The position numbers were made by a program, and so were the translations under genes. The notes beneath the pieces are model-generated. The model was not told where the DNA came from. It worked only from the letters and a program-made list of their open reading frames with translations, and made no database searches. Shown here in pieces: positions 33,193 to 36,107 of a stretch of 64,000 bases of DNA; position 1 is the stretch's first letter, and every line of letters starts with the position of its first letter. Origin of the DNA: Streptococcus rubneri (GTDB lineage: Bacteria > Bacillota > Bacilli > Lactobacillales > Streptococcaceae); contig NZ_SRRP01000001.1 in assembly GCF_004785935.1 (NCBI RefSeq), positions 620,001-684,000 on the forward strand, given 5' to 3'.

Positions 33193-33957
33193 TTAATGGA
33201 ATTGCATCCCACCATCCACGATGATGGTTTGTCCTGTAATGTAGTTTGAATCAGGACCAGCAAGGAAGCTAACCGCTGCAGCGACATCTTCGGGTTCGGA
33301 CAAACGTTTAAGGGTAATATCTTTAGCGAAAGTTTGCATACCCCATTCGTCATCTTTACCAGCGTTCTTACCAACTTCATGAGCGATATCATACATCATT
33401 GGAGTCTTAACGATACCAGGTGCATACGCATTGACAGTAATACCTGAATCAGCCAAGTCACGTGCCAAAGTTTGAGTGATACCACGAACTGCAAACTTAG
33501 TACCACCATAGACAGTCAAGTTAGGGTTACCTACAACACCTGCTTGTGAAGTTGCATTGATGATTTTTCCGCCATGGCCAAGCGCCTTGAATTGAGCTTG
33601 TGCAGCTTGAGCACCCCAGATGACACCACCAACGTTGATGGCAAAAGTGCGTTCAAATTGTTCTTCTGTAATCGTATCAAGTGGTGTAGTTGGAGCAACA
33701 CCAGCGTTGTTAACGACAACATTTAAATCTCCAAAATGATCCACAACTTTTTGGAAAGCTGCAGCCACTTCAGCTTGTTTGGAGACATCAGCAACGACCG
33801 CAAAAGCATTCTCTGCTGATAACTCAGCTACTGCTTTTTCTGCTGTCTCAGCATTGTAGTCTAAGACTCCGACCTTGAAGCCATCTTGTACCAATCGTTT
33901 TGCAATCGCAAAACCGATCCCTTGACCTGCACCTGTGACAATAGCTACTTTAGACAT
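33193..33957 (-). CDS. Short-chain dehydrogenase, acetoin(diacetyl) reductase / 2,3-butanediol dehydrogenase type
   Basis: A 254-residue classical SDR. The cofactor motif TGAGQGIG is at residues 8-15, NNAGV near 86, catalytic Ser in ATSQAG, and YGGTK with the Tyr/Lys pair near 152-156; [14 protein letters not shown] is the usual end of BudC/ButA. It probably reduces diacetyl and acetoin with NADH at the end of pyruvate overflow. The frame continues to 34011, but the ATG at 33957 has GGAGG and gives the standard N-terminus. Confidence 0.9.
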
Positions 33958-34222
33958 ATGATTCCTCCTTGGTATCCCCGATACCAGCAAACGTTCATAG
34001 AAGAACAGCAAAGGTTGACAGTCAGTTTTGTATGAATCTATTATAAGTTCCTTCCAAAACTATGGTAACAGTATACTCCTTTGTGAAAATAGTGTCAAAC
34101 TCTGGCCTGTTATTTTCTAAAGTAATTTACAATCTATCTTATCTTTATTTAGTAATAGATTAACTGATCAAAATAATTTTGAAAAGGGTTTTATATCTTG
34201 ACAAAAACACTCCTATTGCCTA

Positions 34223-34251
34223 TTGTTTTGCGACTTATTTCATGCTACACT
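34223..34251 (+). promoter_or_regulatory. Promoter of the 35-residue peptide gene
   Basis: -35 TTGTTT (34223-34228), 17-base spacer, -10 TACACT (34246-34251) preceded by TGC (extended -10). Confidence 0.65.
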
Positions 34252-34287
34252 AATTATAAGAAAATCAAACAATAAGGAGGTCAAATA

Positions 34288-34395
34288 ATGAAAGAATTCA
34301 TGGATAAATTGAATAACCTACCTAAGCCAGTTCAATACATTATTGCGATCATTATTTTCTTTATTGCGTTTTACATTTCTTATAGCTTGTTTTAA
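34288..34395 (+). CDS. Small single-pass membrane peptide (35 residues)
   Basis: A 35-codon gene with AAGGAGG seven bases before the ATG, its own promoter and terminator. The product has an amphipathic, charged N-terminus (MKEFMDKLNNLPKP) and one hydrophobic helix (about residues 16-35, VQYIIAIIIFFIAF then YISYSLF). No family recognised. It is not adjacent to a toxin-antitoxin partner that I can see; a role as a small regulatory membrane peptide is possible. Coding status rests on the complete set of expression signals. Confidence 0.7.
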   Translation: MKEFMDKLNNLPKPVQYIIAIIIFFIAFYISYSLF

Positions 34396-34420
34396 ACTTT
34401 AAACCAAGACCTCACTATCA

Positions 34421-34455
34421 AACAACTTTTCTTATTTGGAAAGTTGTTTTTGTTT
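34421..34455 (+). terminator. Terminator of the 35-residue peptide gene
   Basis: AACAACTTTT/GAAAGTTGTT stem with TTTTTGTTTT tail. Confidence 0.8.
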
Positions 34456-34521
34456 TCCACAGTAATCAAACCTATCCTACACTTATGTAACCTCTTTCAG
34501 CTTGCATAGATCTACGAAAAC

Positions 34522-34546
34522 TAAAAAGCCTTCTTTCGAAGGCTTC
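34522..34546 (-). terminator. Terminator of glpK
   Basis: AAGCCTTC/GAAGGCTT stem, loop TTTC; TTTTTA on the minus strand. Confidence 0.85.
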
Positions 34547-34574
34547 TCATAAACTTTTCATTTGATGAGTCCCT

Positions 34575-36107
<1,533 letters not shown>

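Follow-up and report, generated by a model that had tools for sequence, protein, structure and literature searches.

Bacteria encode single-pass regulatory membrane peptides, among them AcrZ, MgrB and Prli42, which have fewer than about 50 residues, a single membrane helix and a small gene of their own. The precursors of Rgg/SHP pheromones are encoded beside the gene for an Rgg regulator and carry a conserved mature C-terminal peptide. One example of an Rgg-adjacent pheromone gene is given in the available part of PMC9426450, which also describes a ribosome-profiling set of unannotated small open reading frames (ORFs) in Streptococcus pneumoniae D39, including 10 that have a putative signal peptide. 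In Listeria, the mini-protein Prli42 connects RsbR1 with the membrane, according to the accessible portion of PMC9840623. Finally, as characterized in the sections of PMC7472228 drawn on here, the Fst/Ldr type I toxins have one membrane helix and include members in Streptococcus; their features are a highly charged C-terminus, a tryptophan between helix and tail, a P/D/S/TXXXG motif in the helix, a bidirectional terminator, a promoter for a convergent antisense RNA and toxicity on overexpression, with the tryptophan replaced in the Fst prototype and the helix motif present in the majority of members rather than in all.

The locus described here lies in a 64,000-nucleotide stretch of Streptococcus rubneri DNA, referred to below as the window. 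A sequence-only reading of the window had proposed a complete expression unit for a small membrane peptide, comprising an extended -10 promoter, an AAGGAGG ribosome site, a 35-codon frame and a terminator. We confirmed this unit at the same place, and we identified an overlapping second promoter-like site (P1) that was absent from that reading. The features of the locus are as follows.

33193 to 33957, minus strand: gene for (S)-acetoin forming diacetyl reductase, the divergent upstream neighbor (NF006394, above cutoff)
34194 to 34395, plus strand: conserved block of P1, P2, ribosome site and frame, also present in relatives with different flanks
34198 to 34226, plus strand: P1, sigma-70 type promoter-like site TTGACA-17-TATTGT (promoter scan, 10/12 matches)
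34223 to 34251, plus strand: P2, promoter-like site TTGTTT-17-TACACT with extended -10 (by eye and in a later sequence scan)
34274 to 34280, plus strand: ribosome binding site AAGGAGG, 7 nt 5' of the ATG
34288 to 34395, plus strand: membrane-peptide gene, 35 codons and stop (matches in 12/284 genus genomes; 11/11 minimum changes synonymous)
34420 to 34449, plus strand: intrinsic terminator hairpin, then a T-rich tail (terminator scan)
34522 to 34549, minus strand: terminator-like hairpin 3' of the glycerol kinase gene (terminator scan)
34575 to 36083, minus strand: gene for glycerol kinase GlpK, the convergent downstream neighbor (TIGR01311, above cutoff)

The frame opens with the ATG at 34288, closes with a TAA ending at 34395 and encodes the 35-residue product MKEFMDKLNNLPKPVQYIIAIIIFFIAFYISYSLF. 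The -10 element of P1 overlaps the -35 element of P2, which is composed of TTGTTT at 34223-34228, TG at 34243-34244 and TACACT at 34246-34251, with a spacing of 17 nt. P2 has 7/12 consensus matches, under the threshold of the promoter scan, and was recognized by eye and in a multi-sequence scan, in which TACACT with the TG was present in 7/7 australis-group sequences. P1 was kept or nearly kept (TTGACA/TTAACA, TATTGT) in five of the six other australis-group sequences scanned, the exception being L006, in which the core of the ribosome site is altered as well. Conservation of the unit does not extend to the terminator: among the aligned relatives, the downstream region is common to S. australis KO69 (G150) only. 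A tandem CCTATTG CCTATTG at 34212-34225 overlaps the P2 -35 element and is a possible operator. The candidate operator TATTGCCTATTGTTTTG, a 17-mer, has one perfect place in the genome, at this locus, and only one further place, with two mismatches; therefore, no regulon can be named. An Rfam scan of the window at the gathering threshold gave nothing at the peptide locus; its sole match was a distant PyrR binding site at 2043-2173 on the minus strand.

We asked how often such a frame arises by chance. Using strict criteria (ATG start, 25 to 60 codons, a strong ribosome site and a hydrophobic segment), one frame was recovered from the window, and 5 of 20 Markov-simulated windows held one each (mean, 0.25). 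The anatomy by itself is therefore merely suggestive. Conservation in relatives, the absence of which the sequence-only reading had named as one refutation of its proposal, came out in favor of that proposal. The eight genomes encoding an identical peptide have four distinct coding sequences, with nine variable columns and at least 11 changes, all of which are synonymous; under the assumption of independent random changes, the probability of this outcome ranges from 6.8e-9 to 4.0e-7 with the transition weight chosen. Six of the eight rows entered this calculation, the two left out (L031 and L034) being identical to L004. Nei-Gojobori estimates gave a dS of 0.451 and a dN of 0 for the window against L003, and a dS of 0.659 and a dN of 0.082 against L006. 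Against S. sanguinis, synonymous sites were saturated, and dN was 0.139 over codons 1-16 versus 0.662 over codons 17-32; between the australis-group and sanguinis versions, 11/16 residues of the N-terminal half are invariant, compared with 6/19 of the membrane half. Judged by this conservation, which settles its coding nature, the frame is under purifying selection and is a genuine self-contained accessory gene. The earlier proposal of a complete gene that is readily overlooked and encodes a membrane peptide with one helix is thus supported, and comparative genomics can certify such a gene where anatomy by itself cannot.

The distribution of the gene was assessed by searching a five-row profile against 284 Streptococcus genomes, one genome per species. 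Matches at E values up to 0.1 were found in 38 genomes, 12 of them at 5.1e-12 or better; the remaining 26 were at 0.0079 or worse and were taken as chance, so that the other 272 genomes gave no match below 0.0079. Eight of the 12 genomes, including that of the window, encode the identical 35 residues. One of these eight, S. australis KO69, has lost the stop codon, and its frame (L085:189-425, L033) reads 78 residues, through the terminator region. Among the other four, G024 encodes a peptide that is 83% identical, the two S. sanguinis genomes (G047 and G105) encode a 43-residue version with 57-61% identity, and G138 holds a decayed copy in which the start region is missing and the frame is shifted within the helix. 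A pattern scan of named species genomes returned eight places, in Streptococcus only: S. australis (three), S. sanguinis (two), S. xiaochunlingii (one) and two strains without a species name. Beyond the genus, our searches covered samples of the order (246 genomes) and of the phylum (398 genomes), drawn evenly from larger groups and including some Streptococcus. The best match outside the genus in the order sample was at only E 0.0029. In the phylum sample, the best match (E 2.6e-4) fell inside a 436-codon membrane-protein frame, and the second (E 4.1e-4) was a 56-codon frame, L142, in a genome from another family of the phylum (G804). As these E values are per genome, about 0.1-0.2 such matches are expected over 398 genomes, and both top matches are probably chance; the L142 frame could be a distant relative. 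That frame reads KLNNLPGSVQSILVLDIFF (KLNNLPGSVQ), which resembles the peptide motif, and has no preceding methionine. Translation of 23 weak loci (21 from the genus and two from the order, with two places represented twice) gave what look like chance frames, and these candidates were rejected.

The S. sanguinis version occupies an unrelated locus. In S. sanguinis 2908, the gene lies between genes for a CBS-domain protein and a LivF-like ATPase, on approximately 445 bp that are absent from one relative (G009; 1 of 26 genomes searched). It has signals of its own, TTGACT-17-TACAAT with the TG of an extended -10, GGAG and a terminator-like hairpin; the TG is absent in S. sanguinis SK355. The monocistronic layout occurs at two unrelated loci, each with a promoter-like site, a ribosome site and a terminator-like hairpin. 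Transfer or an old rearrangement may account for the two locations.

Neighborhoods of the australis-group copies also vary. The gene order in L082 and L087 is acetoin reductase, peptide, glpF, glpO and glpK, while L086 and L089 have no acetoin reductase frame before the peptide. In L003, L005 and L006, acetoin reductase similarity covers the 3' part only and resumes 61-94 bp before the peptide start codon; the reductase gene looks truncated in these loci, with the near promoter region of the peptide remaining. On the downstream side, glpF-glpO-glpK lies 3' of the peptide in L082, L086 and L087, a flavin-reductase-like gene follows the peptide in L088, and in the window (34395-34575 region) and KO69 glpK stands alone, without glpF-glpO. 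A search of the window's own genome for GlpO, run without a positive control, returned nothing at 1e-5, and one for GlpF returned only matches elsewhere, at 32-53% identity. We considered a functional link to the glycerol genes and rejected it, since in the window and KO69 glpF-glpO do not adjoin the peptide gene, and in L088 the genes downstream of it are different ones. When the window was compared with nine relatives, similarity ended at the stop codon (+107) in seven, at +110 in L003 and at +412 in L033 (KO69). In the four relatives in which the upstream side had changed, the shared block began at -94 (L003), -92 (L005 and L033) or -61 (L006).

Of the 284 genomes, 77 contain the acetoin reductase gene together with its upstream region, and 30 of these 77 were compared with the window. 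Six (L148-L153) hold the peptide or a decayed copy, eight (L170-L177) diverge earlier, and 16 (L154-L169) are empty. Along the empty loci, similarity to the window stands at 84-88% and breaks off at 34157-34166. It starts again at 34522 or 34545, at the glpK end, in 13 of the 16; two of the others end soon past the break, and one shows no resumption. The peptide was found in none of the 16 empty loci, and no match better than E 0.08 was found anywhere in their genomes. Since these 16 relatives share the upstream locus without the peptide, the gene is accessory and dispensable. A repeat containing GAGGCTGGGACAAAAGTCCTAGCCTC or close variants is found at this locus both in carriers of the peptide and in non-carriers, at L005:1653-1680, where it is terminator-like, and in the downstream regions of L156, L162 and L169. 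Because strains naturally differ in whether this one locus has the gene, ready strain pairs exist for finding the function.

On these comparisons the gene is both autonomous and accessory. We also considered a bolder reading, which we regard as speculative and rather improbable: that this is a portable micro-gene, an approximately 200-bp unit of promoter and frame that has taken up unrelated positions in two lineages of oral streptococci. Its product, founding a new peptide family, would use a docking helix in the cytoplasm to confer a trait that can be switched. Such a trait, if it exists, might be the regulation of a conserved sensor or transporter, for instance, or a barrier to phage or DNA.

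Searches for known families were carried out with the window, sanguinis and L006 versions against Pfam, PHROGs and PADLOC and returned nothing at curated cutoffs, with no PHROGs or PADLOC match better than E 0.2; NCBIfam and PDB sequence searches with the window version gave nothing at curated cutoffs. The best family match was to FixP_N, the N-terminus of a cbb3 oxidase subunit (PF14715), at E 0.0019 and 18.3 bits against a cutoff of 24.9; it was obtained with the sanguinis version only, was not reported by the Pfam search for the window peptide or L006, and was rejected. FeoB_associated (PF12669; E 0.51, 11.1 versus 27 bits) was likewise rejected, the peptide having no cysteine. No match was found in phage and plasmid records by tblastn or in viral contigs by one exact DNA pattern, and no paper in the literature library searched contained the string MDKLNNLPK, nor did any of the titles listed name the gene.

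The peptide is predicted to have one membrane helix in its 35 residues, with a best 17-residue hydropathy of 2.54. AlphaFold, given five aligned sequences (four distinct at most), modeled helices at residues 2-9 and 13-34 separated by a break at 10-12, with a mean pLDDT of 90.7 that says nothing on membrane insertion or binding. Residues 1-11, a segment picked by eye, are amphipathic, with a moment reached by 1.6%, 0.3% and 1.6% of shuffles for the window, L006 and sanguinis versions, respectively. All charges of the window peptide fall within its first 13 residues, with none after K13, and under the positive-inside rule the N-terminus is expected to be inside. The greater conservation of this putatively cytoplasmic end points to a possible protein contact there.

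These observations led us to a model for the peptide. The leader fed by the two overlapping predicted promoters would be approximately 30 nt long and carry a strong ribosome site. The N-terminus of the product would lie in the cytoplasm, with the amphipathic helix of residues 2-9 resting against the inner face of the membrane; the conserved NLPK break and the single membrane helix (13-34) would come next. Through its conserved N-terminal surface (MK...DxLNNLPKxVQ), the peptide may dock onto a partner at the inner membrane face, such as a transporter, a sensor, a protease or an anchored soluble protein, whose activity or stability it would tune. Since the neighbors differ from one genome to the next, the gene for the partner probably lies elsewhere, and the peptide would act in trans. 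We therefore lean, with little more than even confidence, toward an inside-facing regulatory single-pass membrane peptide that acts on a partner encoded elsewhere, the docking and the regulation being the parts that we infer. Among the three functions offered by the sequence-only reading, a regulatory membrane peptide appears to fit best, and a toxin or a signaling peptide seems to fit poorly.

Several observations count against this model. Dispensability and the decayed G138 copy are what one might equally see in a selfish or toxic gene, the KO69 frame has lost its stop, and the ribosome site of L006 is altered. The peptide could be a small hydrophobic toxin, type I or stand-alone, that depolarizes the membrane and is checked by antisense RNA or weak expression. 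It is short, hydrophobic, accessory and patchy, with a decayed copy in one genome and a monocistronic layout with a terminator, and a consensus scan of the minus strand found a weak promoter-like site near +80 of the frame (GCGATA/GCGATG, 17 nt, AATAAT) in four of eight sequences (L003, L005, L032 and L033). However, this site was not found in the window, which has a different weak site, or in L004, L006 and L007, and the eight sequences have no minus-strand site in common. Moreover, no Fst-type family was among the Pfam matches at E values up to 10 for the three versions, the transcript fold is only mildly stable (z, -1.68; 11/200 shuffles equally or more stable), and the polar N-terminus is conserved rather than the helix. 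Compared with Fst/Ldr as set out in the available part of its source, the likeness is that of a short peptide with one membrane helix. In place of the charged tail, the modeled helix extends as far as residue 34 of 35, with no charge beyond K13 in the window peptide; no tryptophan occurs in the aligned versions, no PXXXG motif is present, and the window peptide has no glycine. Nor does the minus strand carry a T-run after the stem, as it would if the terminator were bidirectional and also served a convergent antitoxin gene. The earlier suggestion of a small toxin, taken as one of the Fst/Ldr type, thus failed on the sequence features tested, and we consider a toxin of any kind unlikely.

A partnerless peptide acting on the bilayer under stress, as reported for Escherichia coli YohP, would agree with the size and hydrophobic character observed here, and a 27-residue membrane peptide with membrane and metabolic effects is described in the accessible portion of PMC12719787. 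The strongly conserved polar N-terminal half points instead to a specific contact, and we judge this explanation to be quite improbable.

A precursor of a secreted signaling peptide, of the Rgg/SHP or lipoprotein-signal type, is very improbable. The short frame, its hydrophobic C-terminal end and its occurrence in Streptococcus are as expected for one. In contrast to an Rgg-adjacent gene, the neighbors here are acetoin reductase and GlpK, and those in S. sanguinis 2908 are the CBS-domain protein and LivF-like ATPase. The pheromone precursors conserve their C-terminal peptide, whereas this peptide keeps its N-terminal half and varies by lineage at its C-terminal end (SYSLF, TYSLF and YHVGFNLFAPSK); the earlier proposal of a signaling peptide did not hold up well on either count. 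That the frame arose by chance and has no product, as the 5/20 simulated windows with a comparable frame might suggest, is scarcely credible given 11/11 synonymous minimum changes and an S. sanguinis homologue with its own expression signals.

The regulatory membrane peptide that we favor resembles the unannotated small ORFs of the S. pneumoniae D39 set, in the part of that source available, in being the product of a small streptococcal ORF, but that set comes from another species. It has no Pfam or NCBIfam match at cutoff and adds to the oral streptococci a conserved small membrane-peptide family without a match in the libraries searched. With AcrZ, MgrB and Prli42 it shares the size range, the one membrane helix and the small gene of its own, a grouping by architecture and not by homology. 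On this evidence, the peptide would belong with the small regulatory membrane peptides as a class defined by architecture rather than as a family by descent.
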